Below, piece after piece: positions 1-15,649 of a stretch of 64,000 nucleotides of DNA (positions are counted from its first letter, which is position 1; each line of letters opens with the position of its first letter). The position numbers and the translations under genes were made by a program. Origin of the DNA: Moritella marina ATCC 15381. Its GTDB lineage: Bacteria; Pseudomonadota; Gammaproteobacteria; Enterobacterales; Moritellaceae. The stretch spans positions 558,001-622,000 of the forward strand of contig NZ_CP044399.1 of assembly GCF_008931805.1 (NCBI RefSeq). The letters are read 5' to 3'. The notes under the pieces are model-generated. The model was not told the origin of the DNA. It was given only the letters and a program-made list of their open reading frames with translations, and searched no databases.

Positions 1-2702
1 ATATTGTCCCAATGCTTTCTCTCTAGGAACGGTTCTACCGCTTGGCGCTTTGGTCTTACGATAAAGTTGTCGAGATTCATGCCACTAACAAGGTGATGTA
101 ACATGTCTAGCTGATAACGGTTTAGTTCTGAATATCGCTCAAAATCTTCTGGATGTTGCTCTCGAAACGCTTCATTGTTTAGCTTACTGTTGATTAATGT
201 GCTCAATAGGACGCGCTTTTCAAATACTTGCTGAGTAACAGGTTTTGCCACTCCCACAGGTAAGCCTTCAGGGTTGGCATCGAAATACTCAAAGTTCTGG
301 CAGTAATCAAATACTTTAAAGGTTTTCTTGTCGTCATTAGGCCCAAACAGATCTTTACACAAACGTGTACCACGGCCAATCATTTGGGTGAACTTCACCT
401 TTGAACGAATCACTTTGAAGAACACTAAGTTAACTACTTCGGGTACATCAATACCGGTATCTAACATATCGACAGAAATGGCGATGCGGCAAGTTGGATT
501 TTTTGGATCGAACTCGTCAACTTTGTTTTCGTCACCACCGAATTCATCGATTAGACTTTGTGCATAGGTTTCTTTGAAGGTGATGACGCGTGCAAGTTTA
601 CCTGCCCATTTGGGATAGTTCTTGTTGAACATTTTCTCAAGGAAAACCGCATGATCATTATTGGCTGCAAAGATAATGGTTTTACCGATGACATCGCCAC
701 CTTCAACATGGATACCACCTCGGTCATCTTTGCTCATTAACTGAGCAAACATCTTCTCTGCGGTATCTTCATTAAACAGAAATTTATTGACTTCAGATGG
801 CAATACTTCATCACGGTCTTCTAGTTCAGCTTTGTTTTCCCACTCATCTTGTTCTTCGTTAGACAACTCTTTGTACTTTACACCTTCACGCAAGAACTTA
901 GTTGCGACTGAAATTTTGGTTGGTGGTACTAGATATTCTTCAGCGTATGCACTGCTGTCTTCGTAAGCGTAAGTTGGCATGCCTTTTTGTAGATCAAAAA
1001 TACCATAAGTATCTTTTTCAACTTCGTCTTTTGGTGTAGCTGTTAGCCCTACTAAGAAACCATCAAAGTATTCGAAAATCTGACGATACTTGGAATAAAT
1101 AGATCTATGTGCTTCATCGACGATGATTAAGTCAAAATGACCCACACCAAACGGGCGTTCATCAGTACCGCGATCCAGTAGATTCTTCATAGTAGGGTAA
1201 GTCGAGAAATACAAGCGACTGTCGATGTTGCTCTTGCTTTGACCTGAATTTAAAATAGAGCAACTCACGCGGGGTAACAGCTTAACGAAGTTCTTCTTGG
1301 CTTGGGTGAGTAGCGCATTACGATCGGCAAGGAACAGGACGTTCTTAACCCAATCATTTTTCACCAACAAATCAACAAGGCTGATCACGGTTCGGGTTTT
1401 ACCTGTGCCCGTCGCCATGACAAACAATCCCTTGCGTTCATGTTCTAACTCAAAGTCTTGTAATAACTTAGTGATGGCTGATTTTTGATAGTGGCGGTTG
1501 GTGATCTCGTTATTAATAACAAGATTACTGTTAGGCATGGCGTTGTCGAAAAAGGGCTTACGCTCGATTCGACGTTTAACCATCAGCTCAAGCTCGGCTT
1601 GGGTGTAAAAGCCCTGAACTTGACGCGGTGGATAAAAATGATCATCCCATAAGTGCGTATCATAGCCATTGGTGTAGAAGATAACAGGGCGCACACCGCA
1701 TTGTTTTTCTAAACAATCAGCATAAAGTTTTGCTTGTTGTTGGCCATCTTCCGCGCGGCGATGGGTGCGTTTTGCTTCCACCACAGCCAGTGCTGTGCCG
1801 TCATCGCCCCACAATACGTAATCGACAAAGCCGTTACCTTTTGGATTAGCTTTAGAAATCGGCATACCTGATACAGGGTATTCTCGGTCACGTTTATGCG
1901 CTAATTTCCAACCAGCTTCATGCAGTAGTACATCAATGAGATAAGTACGGGTTTCTGCTTCGTTGTAATCATGCGTGTCTGACGTTTTCTCTGCACTTTG
2001 TTTAGCTTGTGCAATCTGTTCTAGTAATGCTTGGTTAGCCGCTTTTAACGCTGCGTTTTCTTTAAGCTGCTGCTGATATGTCTCACGCTCTACTTTGTCG
2101 CCTTGTTCTAATTGCTTTTCAAGCTCTTTGACACGCTTCAAGCTACTAAGTGCTTTTGTTGCAACGGCTTTCGTAATCACCACTTGCTGCGGTATTAATG
2201 ATTCATCGAAGGGTTGAACGATAAACTTGTTACGATCAAGGTTTGGCGTATATGTGCGAACAAACCAATACAATACATGGTGGAGCTCTTTTACCGCTTG
2301 CAGGGAATCACGTTGTGGCAGTGTTGTTTTACTGTGTACCGCTTCGTTACCCACTTGGATAACTAGCTTGAGCTTAGGGAACAGATTTGTAGTCAGGTTT
2401 TGTTTAAAACTCTTGTCATGAATCAGCGACATTAAAGTGGCATCATGGCGGGGGCGAGTCAGCCAGTTGTCGATGTCAAATACGGTTTCAACCATCAACT
2501 CCAAGGCATTACGAGCGTAAAATCCTGCAATGCGTGGGTCGGTTTTGATGTTGCTTTCAGCGTTTTTCGCACGAGTTTGAATTTCCGCACAACGAGTTGA
2601 ATACACATCGTTATCGTGCAACTTACTGGTAGCATTCGCGCCTTTAATGGCGACATCCATAAAGTCGAAATTGCTAGTTGAACCGTTCACCGTATCTGAC
2701 AT
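1..2702 (-). CDS. hsdR: Type I restriction enzyme R subunit HsdR (3'-truncated by window edge)
   Basis: This is the motor and nuclease subunit of a type I restriction system. It translocates and cuts unmodified DNA together with HsdM and HsdS. The frame is open from an ATG at 2702, preceded by AAGGA, to base 1, which gives 900 codons without a stop. Visible in order are an N-terminal DUF4145-like region, a coiled-coil stretch near residues 185-225, the nuclease motif VVEAKR, Walker A (ATGTGKTR), the DEAH box (VDEAHRS), TATP, and the helicase motif VI region (QMIGRGTRL). The C-terminal part is beyond the window. It lies 56 bp behind hsdS and is the last gene of an M-S-R operon. The family match is certain; the exact type I subfamily is not determined. 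Confidence 0.95.
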   Translation of the reverse strand, partial: MSDTVNGSTSNFDFMDVAIKGANATSKLHDNDVYSTRCAEIQTRAKNAESNIKTDPRIAGFYARNALELMVETVFDIDNWLTRPRHDATLMSLIHDKSFKQNLTTNLFPKLKLVIQVGNEAVHSKTTLPQRDSLQAVKELHHVLYWFVRTYTPNLDRNKFIVQPFDESLIPQQVVITKAVATKALSSLKRVKELEKQLEQGDKVERETYQQQLKENAALKAANQALLEQIAQAKQSAEKTSDTHDYNEAETRTYLIDVLLHEAGWKLAHKRDREYPVSGMPISKANPKGNGFVDYVLWGDDGTALAVVEAKRTHRRAEDGQQQAKLYADCLEKQCGVRPVIFYTNGYDTHLWDDHFYPPRQVQGFYTQAELELMVKRRIERKPFFDNAMPNSNLVINNEITNRHYQKSAITKLLQDFELEHERKGLFVMATGTGKTRTVISLVDLLVKNDWVKNVLFLADRNALLTQAKKNFVKLLPRVSCSILNSGQSKSNIDSRLYFSTYPTMKNLLDRGTDERPFGVGHFDLIIVDEAHRSIYSKYRQIFEYFDGFLVGLTATPKDEVEKDTYGIFDLQKGMPTYAYEDSSAYAEEYLVPPTKISVATKFLREGVKYKELSNEEQDEWENKAELEDRDEVLPSEVNKFLFNEDTAEKMFAQLMSKDDRGGIHVEGGDVIGKTIIFAANNDHAVFLEKMFNKNYPKWAGKLARVITFKETYAQSLIDEFGGDENKVDEFDPKNPTCRIAISVDMLDTGIDVPEVVNLVFFKVIRSKVKFTQMIGRGTRLCKDLFGPNDDKKTFKVFDYCQNFEYFDANPEGLPVGVAKPVTQQVFEKRVLLSTLINSKLNNEAFREQHPEDFERYSELNRYQLDMLHHLVSGMNLDNFIVRPKRQAVEPFLERKHWDN

Positions 2703-2758
2703 TTGACTTCCTTTTTACATCATCATTCTTATTATTAGGTATGAGCTATTGATATTCG

Positions 2759-3928
2759 CTATAGGTTTAAGTCGCCTTTAAAGGCTTTTAACATCAAAGA
2801 ACTGAATAGCTCATCATAATCTTTGATTTTTGTTGAGCCTTTGAGTAGATTTCGCGTCTCTTGATATACAGCTCTAAATCTTTTTTGAAGCTCTATTGGC
2901 GGACAGTAGATTTCAATTTTCTTAATATCTTTACCTGTGATGGTCTTTTTGGCCGTTTTTGATATGTATTTTTCTATTTTTTTCTGTCCTCCATTTGAAG
3001 TCAGAAAGTAGTATAAAAAGATAGGATCTACTTTATGTCGGTTAGCTCTATACATGATGAGGTTAGGACTTATATTCCCATTAACGACATTTTCAGATTC
3101 AACTAAACCGATTCTCTTACCTGTAGAGCCGTCCCCTCTAACAGCCATAACAATATCACCAAGCTTTAAAATTGTTCGAGGGTACTCTTTTGAAATAGAT
3201 TCAGGCATAAAGTCATATTTTGAAAGGTCATCTCCGACATATCCATCTTTCGTAATATTTCCTATCTTAACTACAGGTATGCCTTCATCGACATAATCAA
3301 ACCCATAAAACGTCGGATACCTGTATATGTCAGTGCAAACATCATCAAGAGTTTTAATATCCCACTCTTTCGGATTAGTTATCGGCTCTCCAAACATATC
3401 AATAAACACTGACTGAGCGAGGCTGTTTAGCTCTTGCTCCACTTGCCGGCAGTTTTTTCGCAGTTGGTCAGCTTTTTCTAACACCGCTGCAATTTTCTTT
3501 TGGGTTTCTAGTGGAGGGAGTGGGATTTTTGTACCCAAAAAATCCCCTCTATTGACGTGTTTCATGGTTGAACCACGAGTAAATTTAAGCATTGCTGAGA
3601 TTGCATCTCTCAAAGCGTATCGCAAGTAATCTTTATTTACTTTTTTATAGTCAGGTTCAACTTTAAAAATATGCTGATTTAAGAGTGCATCTTCTCTATG
3701 CCACTCAAAAACATCCAAGGTTGCAGACCAAGAAACAAGCAAGTCACCACTGACTACATGGTACTTTTCAGGAATGTCCATTGAAGAATAATTAAATGGT
3801 TTAGAAGGATCGGTTAGATTCTGGATGCGAATAATTGGTTTTCCATTTTCTTCCCAGTGTGCGGGCTTGAATGCAAAGCCATTTATAAAGCTAGCTATTG
3901 AGCCTAATTCAACTAATGGCCAATTCAT
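2759..3928 (-). CDS. hsdS: Type I restriction-modification specificity subunit HsdS
   Basis: HsdS carries the DNA-recognition part of the type I complex and sets the target sequence for both methylation and restriction. At 389 aa it has the usual length. Two target-recognition halves are visible. The first starts with WPLVELGSIASFINGFAF, and the second starts near residue 185 after a helical spacer rich in Q, E and L (LETQKKIAAVLEKADQLRKN). A similar spacer motif (IELQKRFRAVYQETRN) closes the second half, as is typical of the duplicated HsdS architecture. Its ATG overlaps the hsdM stop by 4 bp, so the two are translationally coupled. The recognition sequence cannot be read from the protein by eye. 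Confidence 0.93.
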   Translation of the reverse strand: MNWPLVELGSIASFINGFAFKPAHWEENGKPIIRIQNLTDPSKPFNYSSMDIPEKYHVVSGDLLVSWSATLDVFEWHREDALLNQHIFKVEPDYKKVNKDYLRYALRDAISAMLKFTRGSTMKHVNRGDFLGTKIPLPPLETQKKIAAVLEKADQLRKNCRQVEQELNSLAQSVFIDMFGEPITNPKEWDIKTLDDVCTDIYRYPTFYGFDYVDEGIPVVKIGNITKDGYVGDDLSKYDFMPESISKEYPRTILKLGDIVMAVRGDGSTGKRIGLVESENVVNGNISPNLIMYRANRHKVDPIFLYYFLTSNGGQKKIEKYISKTAKKTITGKDIKKIEIYCPPIELQKRFRAVYQETRNLLKGSTKIKDYDELFSSLMLKAFKGDLNL

Positions 3929-5703
3929 TTCAGTAACCCTTCTAACTCAACAACACCCTTCGCCATTTTATCCTGCAATGTCTTAATGCGTTTTAGAATG
4001 TCTTTTGGCGCATCGTACTGCACTTCTTCGTATATAACTTCTTTGTAGCGGTTGAGGCTTAAGTCATAGGCACTTTCTTGGGTAATAACATACTCTGTAC
4101 CATCTTCACCTACAAACGTTGAGTAGGACTTATCTTTGTAGGCTTTCGGTTTTTTACCCTCTTCTTCTGCTTTAGCTGCCGCGTCTTTAGCTGCTTGTTT
4201 ATCTTTGGCACGAAGAGCAGACAATTTCTCGATTACTTCATCGGCTTTTAGGTCTGCTAAAGAAACCATAAAGCTCTGTTCGCTCTTGTTGCGGTTAAGC
4301 TCTGGGCTGTCGTTGTTAAAGAGGCCGTTTTCGTCTGTTAACGTATTGAAACGCGCGATGATGTCTGCGATATTACTTTGTTGATGCGTTGGTTTTTCAT
4401 CTTCTTTAAACAGCTTTGTTCTCTTATCATCTAGTGAGTAGCCGTCTGCCTGCATGTCGTAAAACCAAACGTTGTCTGTACCGCCACTGTTGGTTTTAGT
4501 GAAAATTAGAATGGCAGTGCTCACGCCTGCGTATGGCTTAAACACGCCAGATGGCAGTGAAATTACTGCTTCCAGTTTTTGTTCTTCAATGATCTTTTTA
4601 CGGATAGTTTTATGGGCTTTGGTTGAGCCAAATAATACCCCATCAGGGATGATTACAGCGGCGCGACCACCGACAGTCAGCATGCGTAAAATTAACGCTA
4701 GAAATAGCACTTCAGATTTTTCAGTTGGGCCTTTTTTCTTAACATCAACTTGAATTTCATTACCATTTTCATCGAGTTCAGTTTTTGTTTTTACTACTGC
4801 ACTTTTATTGAGCGGTGTTTTGCCTAACGCTCTGAGTAAGTCAGGTGAGATAATGTCGAAGTCGACAGCGCCTTTGAACGGCGGGTTCGCTAAAATAAGA
4901 TTGTAAGCTTCAGAAATATTATCATCACCTTGATCGCGTAAGCTATCTCGATAATGTACAGATGGATTTTCAATACCATGCAATAACATATTCATCGCGC
5001 CAATCCGCAGCATGCTTTTATCAAAATCAAAGCCAGTAAACATCTCGTTGTTAAAGTGCTTACGATTATCTGGCTTGTTGATCTCATTCTGATGATGCTG
5101 TTCCACATATTCGAGTGCCGCCATTAAGAAGCCACACGTACCCGATGATGGGTCACAGATGGTATCGCCAACCTTCGGCTGCATGAGCTCAACCATCATT
5201 TGAATGATATTACGCGGAGTTCGAAATTGACCGTTCACACCCGACTGTTGCAGTTTACTTAACAGGTATTCGTATAGGTCACCTTTGGTGTCTTTGTCGT
5301 TCATGTCGATGGCGCTAAGTAAATCCACGACCTGTGACAATAACTTTGAAGATGGGATCATGAAAATTGCATCTTTCATGTGCTCTGCAAAGCTACCTTT
5401 ATCGTGTAGGTTTTTAATCTTTGGGAATACACGGTCGCGGACGATTTCCATCATCACGTCTGGATCTTTATCTTTAAAGCTGCTCCAGCGTAGGGCTTGT
5501 TCATCAGGCGAAAACGTGGTGTTGTTTAACGGCAGACCTGTTGCTTGGCTTCGACGCTCAGCAGTCTTTTGTAGTTCATCTAAACGACGAATAAATAGTA
5601 GGTAGGAGATCTGCTCGATCACCGAGATCGGGTTGGCGACACCACCAGTCCAAAACATTTCCCAAACTTGGTCGATCTGATTACGAATTTTGCCTGTTAG
5701 CAT
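3925..5703 (-). CDS. hsdM: Type I restriction-modification DNA methyltransferase HsdM
   Basis: HsdM is the N6-adenine methyltransferase subunit; it uses S-adenosylmethionine and works with HsdS. The protein is 592 aa. It has the N-terminal helical HsdM domain (residues 5-140), the SAM-binding motif DPSSGTCGF (about 184-192) and the catalytic NPPF motif (about 273-276). This is the first gene of the hsdMSR operon, which lies between tnsE and the missing left end of the transposon and is therefore most simply read as transposon cargo. The 273 bp upstream, to tnsE, must hold its promoter; I could not pick a clear -10/-35 pair there. Lys- and Ala-rich residues near 495-520 form a charged linker. 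Confidence 0.95.
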   Translation of the reverse strand: MLTGKIRNQIDQVWEMFWTGGVANPISVIEQISYLLFIRRLDELQKTAERRSQATGLPLNNTTFSPDEQALRWSSFKDKDPDVMMEIVRDRVFPKIKNLHDKGSFAEHMKDAIFMIPSSKLLSQVVDLLSAIDMNDKDTKGDLYEYLLSKLQQSGVNGQFRTPRNIIQMMVELMQPKVGDTICDPSSGTCGFLMAALEYVEQHHQNEINKPDNRKHFNNEMFTGFDFDKSMLRIGAMNMLLHGIENPSVHYRDSLRDQGDDNISEAYNLILANPPFKGAVDFDIISPDLLRALGKTPLNKSAVVKTKTELDENGNEIQVDVKKKGPTEKSEVLFLALILRMLTVGGRAAVIIPDGVLFGSTKAHKTIRKKIIEEQKLEAVISLPSGVFKPYAGVSTAILIFTKTNSGGTDNVWFYDMQADGYSLDDKRTKLFKEDEKPTHQQSNIADIIARFNTLTDENGLFNNDSPELNRNKSEQSFMVSLADLKADEVIEKLSALRAKDKQAAKDAAAKAEEEGKKPKAYKDKSYSTFVGEDGTEYVITQESAYDLSLNRYKEVIYEEVQYDAPKDILKRIKTLQDKMAKGVVELEGLLK

Positions 5704-5976
5704 TTGAAAAACTCTTATTAATAAGGGGGCTATATCTATTTAGATATTGCGAAATTTTACGGTATTTTACTGTATGAGACTAATTTTAGCTAACTATTTG
5801 GTGATACCTGGCTCATTGAGATATTTTGTTGTATAGGACTAGAACAAAGATGTTCAATTCAGAATGCTTGATATTCAGCAATGGAGTCAACCGTATCAGG
5901 AGTTAACTAACTTGACCGGTATTATTCTAATGAAAATTTTTTGACTGATAAATTAAGCTCTGAATATGGATTTATA

Positions 5977-7584
5977 TTAATCAATGAACTTGCTGAACAC
6001 ACGAGCAGACCACCTATGTAATGTCGCTTCATCTATGTTTTCACAGTAATTAATCTTCTGTGGGTGTGAGGCACTGACTTGCCGATTACCAGAGAGTAAA
6101 TTTAATCTTTCTTGTGGCCAAAGAAGTGATTTTTTGACTAACCGCTCCTTGATGTCATTCAGTTCTGCTTCGAGGTCGATATTAGATTGGAAGTTTACAA
6201 CTTTTGTAGCAAGCGGTTTTGCTGAATCGGAAGTATCAACTTCAAGAATATGATAAACCTTAGTACCTATCGCGATTTCAATGACAGCAATACAGCGCGG
6301 TTCAGCTGTGCTCTGTAATAAGTGCTTTTTATGTTTTTCGATAATAGGGAGCTTGGTTATATTTTTAGATATAACTTGGCAATCAAAGTTGTTCTCGAGA
6401 AATGAAATCATTTGGAAAAATAGTGAAAATTTATTTTCATATACACGTTCATCGTCTTGGGTGTTTACAGTCGTATCCCATTCTGCACGTAATATAGTAC
6501 CGGTATTAGAGCCTTCTTCAGTACCGATATGACTGATTATATCACTATTATCATCCTTGCTTTGATCGTCAAAGGAAACTGTAGAGAGCGTTTGTCTTTT
6601 TTTAGGTTCTTTTCTTGTATTTATTGGTGTCGCAAATCCAATCATCGTTGATGGTGCACTGACCATACGATGAGTTGTATCAGAGTTTGGTGTTAGATTG
6701 TCGTATAAAGCATACTTGTCGGCAATCTTTTGTTCTTTGGTATAGTTTTTGGACTCTACGGTGGGATCTAACTCTGTAAAGTTACTGTGAGTGAATATTA
6801 TTGGCTGAGATAGCGAATGTCTTAAATTGGTAATCGACGTTATTTCGTTAACAAAAAAGATATCATCACTGTCGTTATATAAACCTTTAATTTGTAGTTT
6901 AGCGCCGTCTAAATTAGGTTGATCAAATTGAAAAAACCAATGTTCGTAATTATTTTTTAAATATACATTCTTGCGATAATAACGATGGATGCTCTCATAT
7001 GAGGTTCGAGCGTTGGGATCGAGAAGGACCCAGCTGAGAGTAGACCTTGCTGCTTCATTGTTAAAATGTTCAATACAATAACTTGTGCTATCAAGAACAT
7101 TAACAATGACTGAGTCATCATCACTATTATGGTCTATATCAAACTCAATACTCAGTTCAGTTGAATTCATCGCAGTTCTAGATAAATAGCCATCACGAAA
7201 AAATAATACGCGTGCAAGCTCAAACTGAGGGAGGTAGACCGTCATTCCTGAGTTAGTTGTAAACTTGAAGCAAAACTGTTCATTTTCAGACTTATTCTTA
7301 TTGTTTAATATAGGGCAATCAGCGATCTTACATGTTTTCCATATTTGGGCATTTTCAATCTCTATATTACGTAAATAACCTTTTTTATAAATGTCATTTG
7401 TTGCGTTAATAATACGTTTACGGGTTAATATTGGCGCTTGTGATAAAGACGTAAATTGTTTAGTTTGATTAGGTGAAACACTTAAATTGATATTCCATCG
7501 TGCTGCGTTATTATGTTTGAAAAAGCTCCCGAAGCCATGTATCTCCGTATTATCTTCAAATCCGTCTATATGTAAGTTATTCAC
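5977..7584 (-). CDS. tnsE: Tn7-type transposition protein TnsE
   Basis: In Tn7, TnsE directs insertion toward replicating DNA, especially conjugating plasmids, by contacting the beta clamp and 3'-recessed ends. The protein is 535 aa, against about 538 for Tn7 TnsE. Family-like segments are visible, including LPQFELARVLFFRDGYLSR in the N-terminal half and LEVDTSDSAKPLATKVV in the C-terminal domain. The start codon is GTG at 7584, overlapping the tnsD stop by 4 bp, so translation is probably coupled. An intact tnsE implies that the element keeps the plasmid-directed pathway as well as the glmS pathway. The central third (residues 280-370) is polar and poorly conserved compared with Tn7, as expected for a linker. 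Confidence 0.9.
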   Translation of the reverse strand: MNNLHIDGFEDNTEIHGFGSFFKHNNAARWNINLSVSPNQTKQFTSLSQAPILTRKRIINATNDIYKKGYLRNIEIENAQIWKTCKIADCPILNNKNKSENEQFCFKFTTNSGMTVYLPQFELARVLFFRDGYLSRTAMNSTELSIEFDIDHNSDDDSVIVNVLDSTSYCIEHFNNEAARSTLSWVLLDPNARTSYESIHRYYRKNVYLKNNYEHWFFQFDQPNLDGAKLQIKGLYNDSDDIFFVNEITSITNLRHSLSQPIIFTHSNFTELDPTVESKNYTKEQKIADKYALYDNLTPNSDTTHRMVSAPSTMIGFATPINTRKEPKKRQTLSTVSFDDQSKDDNSDIISHIGTEEGSNTGTILRAEWDTTVNTQDDERVYENKFSLFFQMISFLENNFDCQVISKNITKLPIIEKHKKHLLQSTAEPRCIAVIEIAIGTKVYHILEVDTSDSAKPLATKVVNFQSNIDLEAELNDIKERLVKKSLLWPQERLNLLSGNRQVSASHPQKINYCENIDEATLHRWSARVFSKFID

Positions 7585-9119
7585 TCAATGATATCTCCGA
7601 TTACATGATCTAAAAAATGACGAGCTAGGCTGGTTAGCCTTTCTTCGCTTAATCCCGCTTTTCGTAATACACGCCATCTCGAAGTATTGATTAGTTCGGT
7701 TCGCAATATTTGAATTGAGCGAGTTATCCGGCGGATTTGATAATCATCTGTTTTTTCACAATAGCGTTGAAAAAAACTATTACATAAAGGCAACTTATCC
7801 AGATGCTTTTCAATGTTGGAAGGTGATGGCAGTTGAGTTAAATACCAACCCCTTGTCAGCTGTGGATGTTCCAACTGTAATTCTATTATTTTACTCTTAG
7901 TTATTAATTGCTTACAAAGTTGGCGATCACGTTTACGCCAATTAACGCGATTATTAACAGTCTTGTGTGGTAGATGATAGGATTTATTAAGCTTTAGTAA
8001 CCAAGCTTTATCGTTACGGTAGAGGTACGCATATAGTGCGCCGCCATTTTCTTTATGCCTAGACGCTTTCACGCCCCATTTAGACACTAAGGCTTTCCAA
8101 CTGTTTTGATGATCTTTGAGTGTTTCAATATCAATGTTATTTTTATTTTCTTCATCGGGCTTAGTCGTGGCACATGGTAAGTTGCTTATTTTATTTATTA
8201 CTTCGCATATGTCCCATTTATTATTTGAATCTGGATCATAAAATGAACTAAGTACGACAATATGTTCTAGATAACTAAATGATTTACGGTGTTTCCTAAA
8301 GATGGCTTTAAGCCAGCAGGTATCTTTATTATTGAGTTCTAGCCCATGTTTTTTAAGCCAGTAATGAGACCAACGATTAAGTATTAATTGCTTAATTTCA
8401 TCGTGTTTTACATGGTATACCCCCTTAGCATAACCATTGTTATTCGCCATCTGCTTATAAAACAAAGACCATTGTGTGAACGTTGGTGAACATATTGGTA
8501 ACTGTTGCAATAATCTATTCACCTGGGTTGTAACAGTCTTGGCCTCTTGTGTTGCTTTAGCCTGTGGCCTCATCAAACAATGTACGGGGGACGCAGCAAC
8601 ATATTCGTGTCTGTGGTTAGTATTTATAGAGATATCAGAGTCGATAAGCATGCCATGCTCAAGACAGCATTCAGCTCCTGTAACTTGCCAACTTCGTTTC
8701 CAATAGTACTCACCATATTGCTGTAACTGTTCATCAATACACTGCGGACAGTATTTTAATTTGATGTTTTTATTCACTCTTGACGCGGAGATGCCAAGCA
8801 TTAAATGAGCTGAGCCTTGAGATCGACTCGACAATAACTTTAAGCATTTATGCTTACGTGATTCTAAGGTGAAGGGTGCATAAATGGGAAATAACGTGTG
8901 TTTGTAGGCAAGATTAATTTCAGAAAAGTCAGTAAGGGCTGGTAGCTGGTTGGAAATTTTACTCAACTGGTTAGGCAAGTCTATGGTAGCGATTATTTTT
9001 CGGTCGCTGAAAATGTCATCCAATACCGCTTTTGGACTTGTTCTGCCAAAGTGAACGCCATATCGAGCTATGACGCTGTAGATGAGCTCATCTGGATAAG
9101 GAATCGGAAGAATGCGCAT
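7581..9119 (-). CDS. tnsD: Tn7-type target-selection protein TnsD (TniQ family)
   Basis: TnsD binds the 3' end of glmS and recruits TnsC to attTn7. I place the start at the ATG at 9119 rather than at the in-frame TTG at 9143. AGGA lies 5 nt upstream, and the 512-aa product then numbers like Tn7 TnsD. The zinc-finger residues fall at C124, C127, C152 and H155, the positions reported for Tn7. The N-terminus MRILPIPYPDELIYSVIAR is the TniQ signature. A very conserved block, NKDTCWLKAIFRKHRKSFSY, lies in the middle. The gene starts 2 bp after tnsC and overlaps tnsE by 4 bp. The intact protein and intact target site indicate a functional site-specific pathway. Confidence 0.95.
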   Translation of the reverse strand: MRILPIPYPDELIYSVIARYGVHFGRTSPKAVLDDIFSDRKIIATIDLPNQLSKISNQLPALTDFSEINLAYKHTLFPIYAPFTLESRKHKCLKLLSSRSQGSAHLMLGISASRVNKNIKLKYCPQCIDEQLQQYGEYYWKRSWQVTGAECCLEHGMLIDSDISINTNHRHEYVAASPVHCLMRPQAKATQEAKTVTTQVNRLLQQLPICSPTFTQWSLFYKQMANNNGYAKGVYHVKHDEIKQLILNRWSHYWLKKHGLELNNKDTCWLKAIFRKHRKSFSYLEHIVVLSSFYDPDSNNKWDICEVINKISNLPCATTKPDEENKNNIDIETLKDHQNSWKALVSKWGVKASRHKENGGALYAYLYRNDKAWLLKLNKSYHLPHKTVNNRVNWRKRDRQLCKQLITKSKIIELQLEHPQLTRGWYLTQLPSPSNIEKHLDKLPLCNSFFQRYCEKTDDYQIRRITRSIQILRTELINTSRWRVLRKAGLSEERLTSLARHFLDHVIGDIIE

Positions 9120-9121
9120 AA

Positions 9122-10783
9122 TTATCCTACATATTCGAGCCAAGAATCTGAACTAAAAATCATACCTTTAAGTTTTAGTTGTTCATAGACTGAATAGGGC
9201 CCTTTATCAGATTCTGAATGCATAAAGCGCATATCGTCAGAGGGTAACGTATTCCAGTTTTGTTTCTTAATTACTGGTGTCGGCGATTTAATGATTTTTT
9301 CTTTTGGCTCATTATACCACTCGAGGATGATAGGCATTAATTGTTGCATTGTCATCGTCGGGTGTAATTCAAATGCTTTATTTACTAAGGGTTTTATCAG
9401 GTCTGAGTTACAGTCCATCGCGACTAACAACTGATGTAAACGTTTAGCATTTTGATTGCCATGATAAATGTTATCTAATGAATCTTCGTTATTAAGCTCA
9501 TGTTCTATTTTCTGAGATAAGGTTAATAATTGTTTATCAATATCCGGCATACAAAGATCTGAAAATTCAACTATGCGTTCAGGGTCATTAGATCGCAGAG
9601 CGTCTAGCATAGGGTGTACTGGCTTTAGTTCATCTTCGTATACCTGTGTAAGGATATTTATTGTTAGCCGCTCAGTTTTTAATACGATAGCTCTTAGTTG
9701 AGACAAGACAAAGATCTTTACTACGATATCGAGAACACCTTGCGATAAGTCATACCAGCATTCACGTAACTCATCTGATAAAGGCGTGTCATTTTTTTGA
9801 AGCCATTGATAGCCCCATAACTTATCTGTAAATGCTACCCATTCACTTTTACTTAACTTTCCTGTTCGAGGATTTTCTTTAGATGGAAGATTCTTCATCG
9901 GTTCCCAAAATAAAGCGCCAAATCCAGCCCCTCGTCTGGCAGAACGAAAATCAGATTCAAATATAGGTCTAGCTTTAGGTGTTCCTATCAGAATGACGGG
10001 TAACCCGATGACATTAACTAACGTAACAAAGAAGTTGAGCATCTTATCTATGCCACCGGATAGACTCAAATGCTGAATTTCATCAATAACTAATACACCT
10101 ACTGCGTGCACATTAGCGATTTGGCTCATTAACGTTAATAGCGTTTCAACACCATGCCGTTTTAGTGCGTACTTTGTCTCATAGTTAGTGCCTAATATTT
10201 TGTCTATGGCTGTGAAAAAGTGATGGCAGAGGCTTTTTGTTGACCCATTTGATGGGCAGTCTAATTTTAAATATACGATTTGAGTGATATTCGTTTTTTC
10301 ATGATAAATAGCTTGTGGATAGGTCGCGAGTATTCTGTTTAGCGTACTTGTTTTACCGCAACCAGAGTTACCAATCAAAGCCATACTTAGTGCTGTAGAT
10401 TTAACATTTGTAAATCTAAAACTGTTTAAATCACCGCTTTGTATTCTCTCGTAACCATTTTGCATATGGCTATTTAAAGCGCCATTATCTGGGTTTCGAC
10501 CTACATAGCCTTGGCGGATCATGATCGATATTTTACTTTCTAGCTGTAGGTGATTAGAAATAGGCTGGAAAAAATCATTTAACAGGTTAGCTATTATGTG
10601 AATTCTTCTATTGGCATCAATAAAGATATCCTTGGGATCAAAGTCAACTTTGCCTGTGAGCCCTGTTTTTATCTGTGCTGTGGACATAATAGGAGGTAAC
10701 GCTTCGATAAATGCATTACCTTGGTATTTTTTGATACCGGGATCTTGATAGCAGGCGTCATGAACGAAATTGTTAGTACTCAT
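9122..10783 (-). CDS. tnsC: Tn7-type transposition regulator TnsC (AAA+ ATPase)
   Basis: TnsC is the ATP-dependent adaptor that links target recognition (TnsD or TnsE) to the TnsAB transposase and gives target immunity. The protein is 553 aa, against about 555 in Tn7. Walker A GNSGCGKT is at about 138-145 and Walker B VLVIDEIQHL at about 230-239. A segment with RSARRGAGFG follows, in the region expected for sensor or arginine-finger function. The ATG has GAGGA 6 nt upstream and begins 2 bp after the tnsB stop, whose last codons contain that ribosome site. The C-terminal 130 residues, which in Tn7 contact TnsA and TnsB, are present. Confidence 0.95.
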   Translation of the reverse strand: MSTNNFVHDACYQDPGIKKYQGNAFIEALPPIMSTAQIKTGLTGKVDFDPKDIFIDANRRIHIIANLLNDFFQPISNHLQLESKISIMIRQGYVGRNPDNGALNSHMQNGYERIQSGDLNSFRFTNVKSTALSMALIGNSGCGKTSTLNRILATYPQAIYHEKTNITQIVYLKLDCPSNGSTKSLCHHFFTAIDKILGTNYETKYALKRHGVETLLTLMSQIANVHAVGVLVIDEIQHLSLSGGIDKMLNFFVTLVNVIGLPVILIGTPKARPIFESDFRSARRGAGFGALFWEPMKNLPSKENPRTGKLSKSEWVAFTDKLWGYQWLQKNDTPLSDELRECWYDLSQGVLDIVVKIFVLSQLRAIVLKTERLTINILTQVYEDELKPVHPMLDALRSNDPERIVEFSDLCMPDIDKQLLTLSQKIEHELNNEDSLDNIYHGNQNAKRLHQLLVAMDCNSDLIKPLVNKAFELHPTMTMQQLMPIILEWYNEPKEKIIKSPTPVIKKQNWNTLPSDDMRFMHSESDKGPYSVYEQLKLKGMIFSSDSWLEYVG

Positions 10784-10785
10784 AT

Positions 10786-12864
10786 TTAATCCTCATCAAA
10801 AAGCTCGTCAATATAATCAGGGAAACTGCAATCATCATCTTGCTTTGTGATAGGAATGATATCGGCAGATTGGTTTTTTTTGTTCACATTTGGGTGAAAA
10901 GCTGTTTCTTTTCTTTCTGCTTCTTTAGCCTTCTCCTTATTGTCATTTATCTGTCGTAACCTTTCTGCATCAGACATTTGAGCTGTATTGATTGCATTTT
11001 TTTCAATGTCTTTGACTTTTTTAGCCATTGCACTTTCTAGCGCTCTAAGTTTATTATCAGAGGTCATTTTAGATTTAGATATAGCCTGCTTTTGCTCAGA
11101 TTGTACTTTTTCAACTTCCCAAAATGTGCAGTCTATAAACTCACGGCTTCGGTCTGCTAATTTGCATATCCAATATTTATTGTTATTTTTTTCAGGAAAT
11201 AAATAAATTTGATTTGCTGTTCGTGGATCATAAGCTGCTTTAAGATTCTGAGGCCTTTTTACTGATTTCCCTCTATGTAGCCATCCTTGTTCTAAAATTT
11301 CACTACTTGTGAAATAGATGCCTAAAGCTTTAATTCCTAAAGGTGAGCAAGTCACATCGACTTGCGGTAATAATGCAATTTGAATCGCTTCTTCTGGGGC
11401 ACTTCTTAATTTACCTGTTCTATTTTGAATACCCCAATTCCATAGTGAGAGAGGAGTCATAGCAAGGTCTTCCGGCATATCAATATCGCGGTCATAGTAT
11501 TCTAGTGTATGAAATTGATTATGATATAAAACAGAGGTTAAGATAATTTCAATAAATTCATTAAGTGTTACCTTGGCATCAAGTCGATAATCTCTATCAC
11601 CTTGTTTTTTGATTTTAGTGCCAGTGACTATACCTGGTAAAAAGGGCTTGAATATGGCCTGAATAGTTCCGAAATATCGCTCTACAATACCTTTTGCATC
11701 GCCACGATAAGGGCCTGTATTTTCGATGCGAATTGAAAAATTGCGTTCGAGAGATTCAATTTGATATCCTATCAATTCGCCTCTATCAGCTAAGATGGCA
11801 TCGGGTAATCCATTAACCGGCCATTCTTCATTCGTGATATCAATGCCATATTTTGCACAGTAAGCCACTTTATCTGTTAGTGCATTAGTGAGAGCCTGCA
11901 TGGCTGTAGCGTAAGATGGACTTTCCATCCCGACATAAATACCAGCTACCATACGGCTAAATGAGTCTATAACTGTATATACAACAGGACGACCAATAAT
12001 ACATGCCCGTTCACTGTTTGAGGTAATGTAGATATCAGCAATCGTTGCGTCAATTTCAAAGCGTGAACCTGGTCCTAATGTATTTGTATTGACTGTACTT
12101 AATAGAGGGCGAACGTCTTTTTGATATGTAATGTTTGTTACTTTTTTAGACATTACTTCAGCTTGTTTATACTCTCGAGTATAGAAGTGCTTCATTTGCC
12201 ACAATGATGGAATTTCTTCTTCTGGCGTTTCAGGGTAATAAGTATCATAGATGCTTTTAAATTGTCGATGAGTGAAGGGAAATGTATTTTTTTTGGCAAC
12301 AAGTAAATATTTCTCAATTGTTCGACGAAATAGTTTTTCAACTTCAGGGGTTATAATCGCTCCCTTACCAGACGTAATGATGCGAGGTCTACCCAGTTTT
12401 TTATCTGTAGCTTGCCTTTTTTTTCCTTTACCACCAGAGAGCTTATAGTCAGGAAGTAGGGCATTTTGTATTTGACCTCGCTGCCAATAGCGCCTGAGTT
12501 GTTTATACAAAGTACGCTTAGTTGATACATGACTGTCAATTAATGCGTTAATTAATTTAGCTCGAGCTTTAGGGTTAAATATCTGTTCGTCAGAAATAAG
12601 AGGCAATATGAGTTCATAATTATGATTTCGTTTTTTGTAAAACGTACTACCTTTTTCTGGTTTTTCAAAAGCTAAAAACTCGAATGGGTCAGTTCCTCTG
12701 GTTAGAGTCCCATCGTCAATAGCTTCTACTAACTCGTCTTTAGAAATCCAAGACGGAAAAGCTTTCTCATCATCTAATGAAATCCAAACTATTTCATCAA
12801 GGTAAATAGTTAAGATCCGATATTGTTCATCATTAAAATTGACTACCTCGTTAACTCTAAACAT
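10786..12864 (-). CDS. tnsB: Tn7-type transposase TnsB (DDE integrase)
   Basis: TnsB binds the transposon ends and makes the 3' cuts and strand transfer. The protein is 692 aa, against 702 in Tn7. The catalytic triad is readable as D272 (SRFEIDATIADI), D360 (ILADRGEL) and E395 (GIVERYFG), each one residue off the Tn7 numbering of 273/361/396. The N-terminal helix-turn-helix region contains the conserved LYKQLRRYWQRGQ. The C-terminal tail is highly charged and ends in an acidic stretch (DYIDELFDED), where Tn7 TnsB contacts TnsC. The ATG has GGGAGG upstream and overlaps the end of tnsA by 22 bp. In Tn7, TnsB also represses the tns promoter at the right end. Confidence 0.96.
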   Translation of the reverse strand: MFRVNEVVNFNDEQYRILTIYLDEIVWISLDDEKAFPSWISKDELVEAIDDGTLTRGTDPFEFLAFEKPEKGSTFYKKRNHNYELILPLISDEQIFNPKARAKLINALIDSHVSTKRTLYKQLRRYWQRGQIQNALLPDYKLSGGKGKKRQATDKKLGRPRIITSGKGAIITPEVEKLFRRTIEKYLLVAKKNTFPFTHRQFKSIYDTYYPETPEEEIPSLWQMKHFYTREYKQAEVMSKKVTNITYQKDVRPLLSTVNTNTLGPGSRFEIDATIADIYITSNSERACIIGRPVVYTVIDSFSRMVAGIYVGMESPSYATAMQALTNALTDKVAYCAKYGIDITNEEWPVNGLPDAILADRGELIGYQIESLERNFSIRIENTGPYRGDAKGIVERYFGTIQAIFKPFLPGIVTGTKIKKQGDRDYRLDAKVTLNEFIEIILTSVLYHNQFHTLEYYDRDIDMPEDLAMTPLSLWNWGIQNRTGKLRSAPEEAIQIALLPQVDVTCSPLGIKALGIYFTSSEILEQGWLHRGKSVKRPQNLKAAYDPRTANQIYLFPEKNNNKYWICKLADRSREFIDCTFWEVEKVQSEQKQAISKSKMTSDNKLRALESAMAKKVKDIEKNAINTAQMSDAERLRQINDNKEKAKEAERKETAFHPNVNKKNQSADIIPITKQDDDCSFPDYIDELFDED

Positions 12865-13673
12865 TCAGCCTCCCGTATAGCGTCATAATTAGCCAAATGT
12901 AATTCATTGATTTTTAATTTTTTTATTGGAATATTTATATCGAATTCAAAACATCTATGGGCTAACAGTTGGCGTAATTCACGGAGTGTCTCACCTAATT
13001 CAAGATCGTAAGTACTATCTAATAACTTGGAGAGCGTAATAATTGTTTTAGTCGGATGACTTTTAAAGATATGTTGATAAAAATTAATACGTTCAATAAA
13101 TTCATCTAAATCTATTTCATCCCGCTGGGCAGGATAGAGCCATTTAATGTTTTCAAAAACAACTTTTGGGATATCATTTTCAGTGACGATAAACCATGGT
13201 ACTGATTTTAATTCCCAAAATTGGCGTTCAATTTCAAGCTTTTCTATTGTTCTTGGATCTTCTAAATCTGCTGCGTATTTAGCTTGTAACGCAAATTTAG
13301 GTTTGTTGAGGAAATTTGTATTCACGAGGAAGTCGGATGACATAATTTGCTGCACACCTTTATCTACGGGGTGTTTAATTTGTGCGTTACGAGCGATGGA
13401 TTGTGTGTCTTTAAGGTTAAGTGGAAATTGTTCTCGTATATCAGTGACTGATAGGTCCCATTCTAAAATGAAAAATACAGCTAATTCTAAATCTGATAAT
13501 AGATGATGAGTTCGGGCACTTTTATGTCCAAAGACTCGACTTGAACGACCTCTTGATGGTAGGTCCCGCACTGTAAGCCAAGGTTTGTAATTGATCCCAT
13601 GGCCAGAACCTCGTCCTTGTTTAATCCATTTAATATTTTTAGCTTCAGAATTGAAGTAACGATTTTGTGACAT
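12843..13673 (-). CDS. tnsA: Tn7-type endonuclease TnsA
   Basis: TnsA is the restriction-enzyme-like subunit that cuts the 5' strands at the transposon ends, making Tn7 a cut-and-paste element. I choose the ATG at 13673, not the in-frame ATG at 13709. With this start the 276-aa protein has its catalytic residues at E63 (SDLELAVF), D114 (SSDFLVN) and K132 (LQAKYAAD), exactly the Tn7 TnsA numbering. The conserved GRGSGHG segment also sits where Tn7 has it. The 13709 start would lie inside a strong hairpin. This is the first gene of the tns operon. Its ribosome site is weak (GGATGGG, 7 nt upstream), and that stretch is also one arm of the hairpin. Confidence 0.94.
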   Translation of the reverse strand: MSQNRYFNSEAKNIKWIKQGRGSGHGINYKPWLTVRDLPSRGRSSRVFGHKSARTHHLLSDLELAVFFILEWDLSVTDIREQFPLNLKDTQSIARNAQIKHPVDKGVQQIMSSDFLVNTNFLNKPKFALQAKYAADLEDPRTIEKLEIERQFWELKSVPWFIVTENDIPKVVFENIKWLYPAQRDEIDLDEFIERINFYQHIFKSHPTKTIITLSKLLDSTYDLELGETLRELRQLLAHRCFEFDINIPIKKLKINELHLANYDAIREAECLELTR

Positions 13674-13723
13674 AAAAAAGCCCATCCATATTTGCTTATT
13701 ATTAAGCATAGTACGGATAGGCT
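13674..13723 (-). terminator. Hairpin plus U6 just upstream of tnsA, facing glmS read-through
   Basis: On the minus strand, AGCCTATCC (13723-13715) pairs with GGATGGGCT (13687-13679), with one mismatch. An inner perfect stem TGCTTA/TAAGCA (13708-13703 and 13698-13693) lies within it, and a run of six T follows at 13679-13674, directly before the tnsA ATG. This has the shape of an intrinsic terminator in the glmS-to-tns direction. It overlaps the weak ribosome site of tnsA, so it could also limit translation. Its function is inferred. Confidence 0.7.
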
Positions 13724-13791
13724 CAGTATACGACTTTATTACTCGGTATACGTCTTTATTACTTGGTATACAACTTTATTACTCGAATACA
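13721..13791. repeat. Transposon right end with three 20-bp TnsB-type binding repeats
   Basis: Three head-to-tail 20-bp copies of the form NCTNNGTATACNNCTTTATT occupy 13721-13740, 13741-13760 and 13761-13780. A partial copy (ACTCGAATACA, 13781-13791) ends at the element terminus. Read inward from the terminus this is TGTATTCGAGTAATAAAG and so on. Closely packed 20-22-bp TnsB sites are the known layout of the Tn7 right end. Each full copy contains the palindrome GTATAC. Confidence 0.88.
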
Positions 13792-13796
13792 TGTTA
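13792..13796. other. Probable 5-bp target-site duplication, glmS side
   Basis: Tn7-family insertion duplicates 5 bp. The five bases next to the mapped terminus are TGTTA, so this is the expected right-hand copy, centred 23 bp before the last base of the glmS stop. The left-hand copy is outside the window, so the duplication itself is not verified. Confidence 0.6.
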
Positions 13797-13816: not shown

Positions 13817-13852
13817 TTACTCAACCGTTACCGCTTTAGCAAGATTACGTGG
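13817..13852. promoter_or_regulatory. attTn7 TnsD-binding region in the 3' end of glmS
   Basis: In E. coli TnsD contacts positions +23 to +58 from the insertion point. Here that range is the last 36 bp of glmS, encoding NLAKAVTVE plus the stop and the codons before them. The peptide differs from E. coli GlmS by one residue (Ala for Ser) over the last 15 residues, so the recognition site is preserved. Confidence 0.8.
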
Positions 13853-15649
13853 TTGATCCACATCTGTGCCTTTAATCAGTGCGACATGATATGAAAGCAG
13901 CTGCATAGGTAATGTGTAGAAGATTGGCGCGGTAATTTCGCTTACATGCGGCATAGTGATGATTTTCATCCCTTCTGATGCCACAAAACCAGCGTCTGCG
14001 TCAGCAAATACATACAGTAGTCCGCCACGAGCACGTACTTCTTCAATATTCGATTTTAGTTTTTCTAATAGTTCATTGGTTGGTGCAATAACCACAACTG
14101 GCATATCTGCATCCACTAGCGCTAACGGACCGTGTTTTAATTCACCAGCTGCGTATGCTTCTGCGTGAATGTAAGAGATCTCTTTCAGCTTCAGTGCGGC
14201 TTCCATCGCGATAGGGTAAAACTCACCGCGGCCTAAGAATAAGGTGTGGTGCTTATCGGCAAAATCTGTTGCTAGTGCTTCGATTTCTTTATCAAATGAT
14301 AATGATGTTTCGATTTGTGCAGGCAATGCGTGCAACGCTGTGACAATTTCAGCTTCGGTATCAGCACTAATTACTTTTTTCTCTTTACCTAATGCGGTTA
14401 CTAACATTAATAATGCAGAGAGTTGGGTGGTGAATGCTTTGGTTGAAGCCACGCCAATTTCTGTCCCAGCACGTGTCATGAATGCGAAATCTGATTCACG
14501 TACCAGTGAAGATCCTGCTACGTTACATACTGTCATTGCCGCCATGTAACCTTTTTCCTTGGCAAGGCGTAGTGCAGCTAAAGTATCTGCTGTTTCACCT
14601 GATTGCGATAACGTGATAAGTAGGCTGTTAGGACGGGTTACAAATTTACGGTAGCGAAATTCAGACGCAATTTCGACATCACAACTTACGCCAGCGAGTG
14701 ATTCAAACCAATAGCGTGCTGTCATACCTGCATTGTAAGAAGTACCACACGCGATAATTTGTACGTGCTCTACTTTTGGTAAGATCTCTGCTGCGTTAAC
14801 ACCGATACTCTGAGTGATCACGCTGTTCGCAGAAAGGCGACCTTCCATTGTATTGGTTAATGCAACGGGTTGTTCAAAGATCTCTTTTTGCATGAAGTGA
14901 CGGTATTTACCTTTATCACCAGCATCGTGTTCTGCGTTAGATTCAGTTATCTCACGTGTTACTGCGTTACCATTAATATCAAATACTGATACATCGCGAC
15001 GCGTTACCTCTGCCACATCACCTTCTTCAAGGTACATGAAGCGACGTGTTACGCTTAGTAGTGCTAATTGATCAGATGCTAAGAAGTTCTCACCAACACC
15101 TAAACCGATTACAATTGGGCTACCTGAACGTGCGACAATTAATTTACCTGGTTCTAGACGATTGAGTACCACAGTGCCATAAGCGCCATCTAATTGCGCT
15201 GCAGTTTTCTGTACGGCATCGAGTAGACTATCTGTCGAGCGTAATTCCCATTCAACTAAGTGGGCGATAACTTCAGTGTCAGTTTGTGATTGGAATACAT
15301 AACCACGCTGTTGTAATAATTCACGTAGTGCTTCATGATTTTCAATAATACCGTTATGTACAACGGCAATATCGCCAGAAACGTGTGGGTGTGCATTGAC
15401 TTGCGAAGGTTCACCGTGTGTTGCCCAGCGTGTATGCGCAATACCAGTACCGCCAATCGGTTGTTCTGTATCTACCGCAGCTGCTAGCTCTTTTACTTTA
15501 CCTAAGCTACGAATACGTTGCAGGTTGTTATCTTGATCAACAATCGCCACACCAGCAGAATCATAACCGCGGTATTCTAAACGACGTAAACCTTCAACTA
15601 AAATTTCAGCGATATCTCTTTGTGCAACAGCACCAACAATCCCACACAT
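13817..15649 (-). CDS. glmS: Glutamine-fructose-6-phosphate aminotransferase (isomerizing)
   Basis: GlmS makes glucosamine-6-phosphate from fructose-6-phosphate and glutamine, the first step toward UDP-GlcNAc for peptidoglycan and LPS. The 610-aa protein is collinear with E. coli GlmS (609 aa). It begins [12 protein letters not shown], with the catalytic Cys2 of the N-terminal glutaminase domain. It has two SIS isomerase domains (about 290-430 and 460-600), contains SQSGETADT and [20 protein letters not shown], and ends [13 protein letters not shown]. The ribosome site is AGGAG. Its stop codon is 25 bp from the transposon end, so the gene is uninterrupted, but any native terminator further downstream has been displaced by the element. 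Confidence 0.98.

Follow-up and report, generated by a model that had tools for sequence, protein, structure and literature searches.

Restriction-modification (RM) is well documented as Tn7 cargo, and it is an ordinary kind of cargo for these elements. In the sections of Benler et al. (2021) used here, which deal with 6,549 bounded Tn7-like transposons, RM is the commonest defence cargo, with 947 transposons in their Table 1, and nonribosomal peptide synthases are named as known Tn7 cargo (PMC8649781). For Shewanella I-F3 CASTs, the available sections of a second study describe complete type I HsdR/M/S in over half of 42 bounded elements, scattered over the tree (PMC12452197). The locus described here has the sequence hallmarks of canonical Tn7 (TnsABCDE), namely tnsA-E in one operon, inverted repeat arrays, a 5-bp duplication and the glmS site. 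It shares TnsABCDE and terminal repeat arrays with the RM carriers of the former study but has a type I Mokosh system beside the RM genes, and Mokosh is not named in the sections of that paper used here. The element differs from the Shewanella I-F3 CASTs in lacking cas genes, in encoding TnsD and TnsE and in its position at glmS, although we found close relatives of its hsdMSR in seven I-F3 CASTs. Literature joining Mokosh, transposon and restriction-modification terms exists, as far as its accessible parts show. In a literature search with most subscription journals outside it, no paper joining Mokosh and Tn7 was found, and none of the accessible titles and abstracts described one hsdMSR lineage common to canonical Tn7 and CAST elements.

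In order to look for the missing transposon end, we retrieved 100 kb to the left of the window, which is the whole 64,000-nucleotide stretch of Moritella marina ATCC 15381 that was analysed (G000:C2:558001-622000, from a 4.76-Mb genome in two contigs). What could be inferred only from a truncated view is now a fully bounded element. It is very probably a complete tnsABCDE transposon at attTn7 whose cargo is a two-system anti-phage island, with hsdM-hsdS-hsdR followed by mkoA-mkoB. The gene content, both ends, the target duplication, the position and the absence from nine siblings were observed directly; defence by type I restriction and Mokosh is what the sequences predict. The features are as follows (plain numbers are window positions; features given by C2 coordinates lie outside the window).

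C2:549344-549489, left end of the element, three repeats
C2:549520-549759, minus strand, xre, 79 aa, by the left end
C2:549840-550358, plus strand, orf172, by the left end
C2:550661-552115, minus strand, mkoB, 484 aa
C2:552112-556956, minus strand, mkoA, 1614 aa
1-5703, minus strand, window part of the cargo, which continues 8.6 kb left of the window
3-2702, minus strand, hsdR, first 900 codons, cut by the window start
2759-3928, minus strand, hsdS, specificity subunit, 389 aa, two Methylase_S stretches
3925-5703, minus strand, hsdM, N6-adenine methyltransferase subunit, 592 aa
5977-7584, minus strand, tnsE, TnsE_C match of 110 bits
7581-9143, minus strand, tnsD, TniQ and TnsD domains
9122-10783, minus strand, tnsC, AAA ATPase, Tn7_TnsC_Int
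10786-12864, minus strand, tnsB, transposase, 99% identical to the copy in sibling genome G002
12843-13709, minus strand, tnsA, endonuclease (Pfam)
13726-13791, no strand, right end of the transposon, three tandem TnsB-site-like repeats, outermost base 13791
13792-13796, target duplication TGTTA; the other copy (L002:11339-11343, C2:549339-549343) adjoins the left end on its outer side
13817-15649, minus strand, glmS, host gene that marks attTn7

The complete Tn7-like transposon spans 22,448 bp (C2:549344-571791). Its left end was located by a search with the right-end motif at L002:11344 (C2:549344), outside the window, and the 5-bp duplication TGTTA flanks both ends. The insertion point is 25 bp past the glmS stop, with the tnsA side facing glmS. 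Each end has three putative TnsB-site-like repeats in inverted arrays, with AGTAATAAAGNNGTATAC sites at L002:11352, 11418 and 11472 on the plus strand and at window positions 13726, 13746 and 13766 on the minus strand. The AGTAATAAAGNNGTATAC pattern search tolerated up to 3 mismatches. In the 20 kb with the left end it gave 5 matches compared to 0.33 expected (at least 5 in 0 of 200 shuffles), 3 of which fall in the outermost 146 bp of the left end. The window yielded 4, a number reached in 1 of 100 shuffles, and three of these are perfect and tandem (13726-13783). The same search, with the same tolerance, returned no TnsB-site-like repeat in the interval between tnsE and hsdM. The preliminary description had proposed hsdMSR as Tn7 cargo lying between tnsE and a left end beyond the window. 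The end found past mkoB and xre, with its matching TGTTA, bears this out, and the lack of any such repeat between tnsE and hsdM likewise supports cargo.

Just outside the left end, in DNA read in the orientation of glmS, an inverted repeat rich in GC with a stretch of T residues behind it can be recognized by eye. This is probably the terminator that glmS had originally, and the element thus seems to have been inserted between the gene and this terminator. On the inner side of the right end there is a hairpin (window 13673-13724, -24.6 kcal/mol, z of -6.6, equally stable in 0 of 200 shuffles) that has a T-run and abuts the likely tnsA start codon, the true start being probably the ATG at 13673. 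This hairpin was not listed by a simple terminator scan; it looks like a terminator serving glmS and shielding tns from read-through.

The tnsE-D-C-B-A genes occupy 5977-13709, next to glmS at 13817-15649, and are open frames. Pfam matches above curated cut-offs were obtained for TnsA, TnsC, TnsD and TnsE. TnsB had no Pfam match; it scored 50.5 bits with the PADLOC model TnsB_0_V-K and can be aligned from end to end with plasmid transposase genes beside annotated TnsA. The same chromosome has a second Tn7-like set, tnsABC with two TniQ-like genes (L183, G000:C2:3022134-3028968), for which no TnsE match was found within the 40 kb retrieved.

From the left end, the cargo order is xre, orf172 (on the opposite strand), mkoB, mkoA, hsdR, hsdS and hsdM, followed by tnsE. 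The distance from the tnsE end (5977) to the hsdM start is 273 bp, hsdM and hsdS overlap by 4 bp, and the complete hsdR runs from C2:557073 to window position 2702 (1209 aa). The three genes encode an HsdM methylase, an HsdS with two TRDs and an HsdR with nuclease and translocase domains. They are ordinary type I RM genes, having the same HsdM, two-domain HsdS and HsdR with N-terminal nuclease and helicase as other systems of this type. A MADS identity for HsdM and HsdS was rejected, the NCBIfam matches being far under the cut-offs, and so was a Cas4 match on HsdR, which at 18.6 bits is at chance level.

The gap between hsdR and mkoA, on the same strand, is 116 bp, and mkoA and mkoB overlap by 4 bp. 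MkoA matches the PADLOC MkoA model over its whole length (1653 bits) and contains NERD, kinase-like and helicase domains; MkoB matches its model with 350 bits. This adjacent pair is that of type I Mokosh (PADLOC MkoA/MkoB), here on a Tn7 element, and the two matches mean that the cargo has two defence systems and not one. Since a type I Mokosh adjoins hsdR, the suggestion that the element could act as a defence island is now better supported. The closest other MkoA in a 295-genome sample is 47% identical (L169/L170, G160:C1:638000-673500) and has a TnsABC-TniQ set about 9 kb away; at the 6 further MkoA loci, no tns match was found in the stretch retrieved. The orf172 product had no family match in Pfam, PADLOC or NCBIfam. 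It is 26-32% identical to a gene paired with a helicase gene in all seven I-F3 CASTs and in the locus L061, and the I-F3 CAST loci inspected for its relatives have an XRE gene besides the helicase gene. A PADLOC scan of the 12 genes of the element detected no cas gene, and the tniQ-cas8/5-cas7-cas6 plus tnsABC set of I-F3 CASTs was not there.

We then compared the 11 genomes of the genus group, M. marina ATCC 15381 included. The glmS gene is present in all 11; a close TnsB is encoded in 2, and in three others the only TnsB matches are distant. Neither HsdM (at 1e-150) nor MkoA (at 1e-100) was found in the 10 sister genomes. In the roughly 12 kb after glmS, none of the nine siblings without the element gave a tns, hsd or mko match (tblastn and custom HMMs), and this absence of hsd again favours the cargo assignment. 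The left flank of the element is a cellulose-synthase-like cluster, which follows glmS in 0 of the 9 siblings. Because siblings have other genes after glmS, no sibling offers a base-for-base empty site, and the search for one was dropped.

The second genome with a close TnsB, G002, from another species of the genus, has a sister element (C110:18747-51006) with the duplication ATTTA. The insertion site is fixed and the cargo variable, the G002 element having other cargo at the same place. That cargo consists of an NRPS/PKS cluster together with genes for a thioesterase, a PPTase and an MFS transporter (L026:15154 to L027:17302, G002:C110:27153-49301). Identity between the two was calculated in 300-bp windows, with 5900-13616 compared for the tns genes. 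It is 97-99.7% from tnsA through most of tnsC (one window at 94%), varies between 79 and 97% over tnsD-tnsE, and is 80-88% in glmS. Similarity ends 6 bp past the tnsE stop, and at the left end the terminal 151 bp are alike again (83%). The 99% identity of TnsB at another duplication suggests recent movement. From this identity pattern we infer that the element moved between species and that recombination replaced its left half, that is, a recombinational exchange of cargo. A defence-carrying Tn7 can therefore have nearly the same tnsABC as a sister with a biosynthetic cluster, and this near-identity of tnsABC to a sibling with NRPS/PKS cargo goes beyond what was known.

In order to place the RM genes, we defined a close clade of 16 loci, consisting of M. 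marina, the 12 closest of 80 loci returned from a collection of named genomes and three loci from a Vibrio search, with HsdM at least 72% identical to that of M. marina (83-85% over the aligned part for the three Vibrio-search loci). Eleven of the 16 are in Tn7-superfamily elements of three kinds. Besides the M. marina element, three copies are in a second TnsABCDE family (L053 and L055, both next to glmS; L077 on a contig with tnsD and tnsE only). Seven are in I-F3 CASTs, of Vibrio (L056, L058, L063, G401, G488, G350) and Shewanella aestuarii (L060). The Cas and TniQ identity was given by PADLOC for L060, and TniQ also for L056; the other CASTs were assigned by custom models. When the genomes were searched for TnsA (PF08722), the S. 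aestuarii CAST escaped detection; its tnsABC was found by the custom models only. The remaining five (L054, L057, L059, L061, L062) are without Tn7 genes in the DNA available. L061 has the orf172-helicase pair and no tns genes; both the pair and tns genes are absent from L057 and L059, and L062 extends past the end of its contig. L054/L151 (Vibrio zhanjiangensis) has a close hsdMSR (HsdM 85%) about 6 kb after glmS on a contig without tns, and may be what is left of Tn7 cargo that decayed.

Of the 68 HsdM loci that are more distant, 2 (L121, L129) carry tnsABC on the same fragment and one (L104) a lone TnsB-like match. Among loci of at least 20 kb, a tns set is present in 6 of 9 close loci compared to 0 of 36 distant ones, these being the only ones of the 68 that span 20 kb or more; as the custom Tns models were built partly from close-clade elements, distant Tn7 types near the 68 could be missed. 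A control in 227 Vibrio genomes used Pfam models, which are fairer than the custom ones, and start-to-start distances. TnsA matches were found within 15 kb of 8 of 10 close hsdM genes, compared to 5 of 150 within 15 kb and 7 of 150 within 40 kb for the best-scoring 150 of a larger number of other HsdM_N matches. Copies within one genus are not independent, and the Fisher comparisons are descriptive.

In each of the 12 relatives compared, DNA similarity sets in at the hsdM start (window 5703-5706). Ten of them have a complete hsdR, and in these the similarity ends no more than 32 bp from the hsdR stop; L054 and L062 are cut by contigs. We do not claim exact junctions at these two points, since intergenic DNA decays faster. 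Within hsdS, only conserved segments align at the DNA level in the 12 relatives. Of the 11 close-clade HsdS proteins, the nearest shares 36% identity with that of M. marina over 316 residues; a higher value, 39%, comes from L132, which is more distant. Between M. marina and the Vibrio and Aliivibrio copies, HsdR identity amounts to 87-90%. For TnsB, in contrast, the values are 38-39% against the second TnsABCDE family and, over the parts that align, 22-27% against three CASTs. With HsdR conserved while TnsB is very divergent, the module must have changed transposon family. Within one family, between L053 and L055, the divergence is about equal (TnsB 94.4%, HsdR 95.1%). Only 42-50% of hsdR fourfold-degenerate sites match in six Vibrio copies and 38% in the Shewanella copy, which places the change of family long ago. 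A recent transfer of hsdMSR from Vibrio had been considered because HsdR (89% to L053) exceeds GlmS (82%), and it was rejected on the 42-50% match at these sites.

It could be argued that hsdMSR and mkoAB belong to the resident chromosome and that a smaller tnsABCDE element was inserted next to them, as Tn7-like elements can be small and some relatives (L057, L059) have hsdMSR without a Tn7 context. We regard this as extremely unlikely, because the sole left end with a matching duplication is beyond mkoB and xre with no repeat between tnsE and hsdM, no sibling has the genes at this place, and close HsdM or MkoA is in 0 of 10 sister genomes at the cut-offs used. That the five genes form one composite defence system, and not two neighbours, would agree with their common strand, the 116-bp gap and the mkoA/mkoB overlap. 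It is nevertheless very unlikely: the 15 other close hsdMSR loci have no mkoA or mkoB match in the DNA available, 6 of the 7 other order-level MkoA loci are without HsdM nearby (G128 has a weak HsdM match of 46 bits), and the genes after hsdR differ among copies.

The preliminary description also raised stabilisation of the element by post-segregational killing. RM systems can be selfish addiction modules according to the sections used of PMC12707154, and the RM genes might be carried chiefly in order to kill cells that lose the element. The same sections report that type I restriction is delayed or alleviated in naive cells, with EcoKI restricting only after about 15 generations and ClpXP proteolysis alleviating type I restriction (PMC12707154), and on that ground such killing looks unlikely for a type I enzyme. 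Moreover, the element has existed without any RM, in G002, and we consider a chief role in addiction very unlikely.

For the preferred reading, a Tn7-borne island of two defence systems, the protein families and general Tn7 biology suggest that TnsABC with TnsD would insert the element into attTn7, with TnsE giving a second route into mobile DNA. By analogy to RM systems in general, HsdM and HsdS would methylate one specific sequence and HsdR would cut incoming unmethylated DNA, and Mokosh, judging from its family, may be an independent second layer. The hsdMSR genes represent an old Tn7-superfamily cargo lineage, passed between transposon families with varying HsdS and post-hsdR gene, and the identity pattern to G002 suggests that cargo is swapped through recombination within the left half.

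Six kinds of gene follow hsdR in the 11 Tn7-borne copies, and five of them clearly match known defence models:

Mokosh, in the M. marina copy
DRT1, in L053, L055, L056 and G488
BrxH/DrmD-like helicase, preceded by a protein without PADLOC match, in L063, G401 and G350
CBASS-type cyclase, in L060
HEC-03B, in L077
Weak Tiamat-like match, in L058

PADLOC was used for these genes in L053, L056, L058, L060, L063 and L077; L055 and G488 were assigned by a custom DRT1 model, and G401 and G350 by the likeness of their sequence start to L063. Of the copies outside Tn7, the gene after hsdR was scanned in L061, where it has no PADLOC match, and in L059, where the match is weak; L054 and L062 are cut. That one hsdMSR lineage was taken up by very different Tn7-type transposons, often beside a different second defence, also goes beyond what was known. 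On the basis of 11 copies, we tentatively raise the possibility that this lineage serves the Tn7 superfamily as a specialised cargo core, with a variable hsdS and a dock for swappable defence genes after hsdR, and not a random defence island. The hsdMSR genes would then circulate among two kinds of attTn7 TnsABCDE elements and RNA-guided I-F3 CASTs with very divergent transposases, with hsdM and hsdR as conserved arms flanking the variable hsdS. Exchange at the dock might occur via homologous recombination between elements in tandem at attTn7 or sharing one cell. If this is true, the place after hsdR is a practical spot to seek undescribed defence genes, and a comparison of these elements would reveal how Tn7 cargo is exchanged.

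Vibrio methylphosphonaticus has two Tn7-like sets in tandem after one glmS (L053:20774-21604 and L152:1094-8813), with TnsA of the second set 48% and of the first set 32% identical to that of M. marina; tandem sets of this kind could allow cargo exchange. Among the Vibrio CASTs, hsdM is broken in G350 (L147/L148), and tniQ is interrupted in G401 (L144) by an insertion resembling an IS66-type element.
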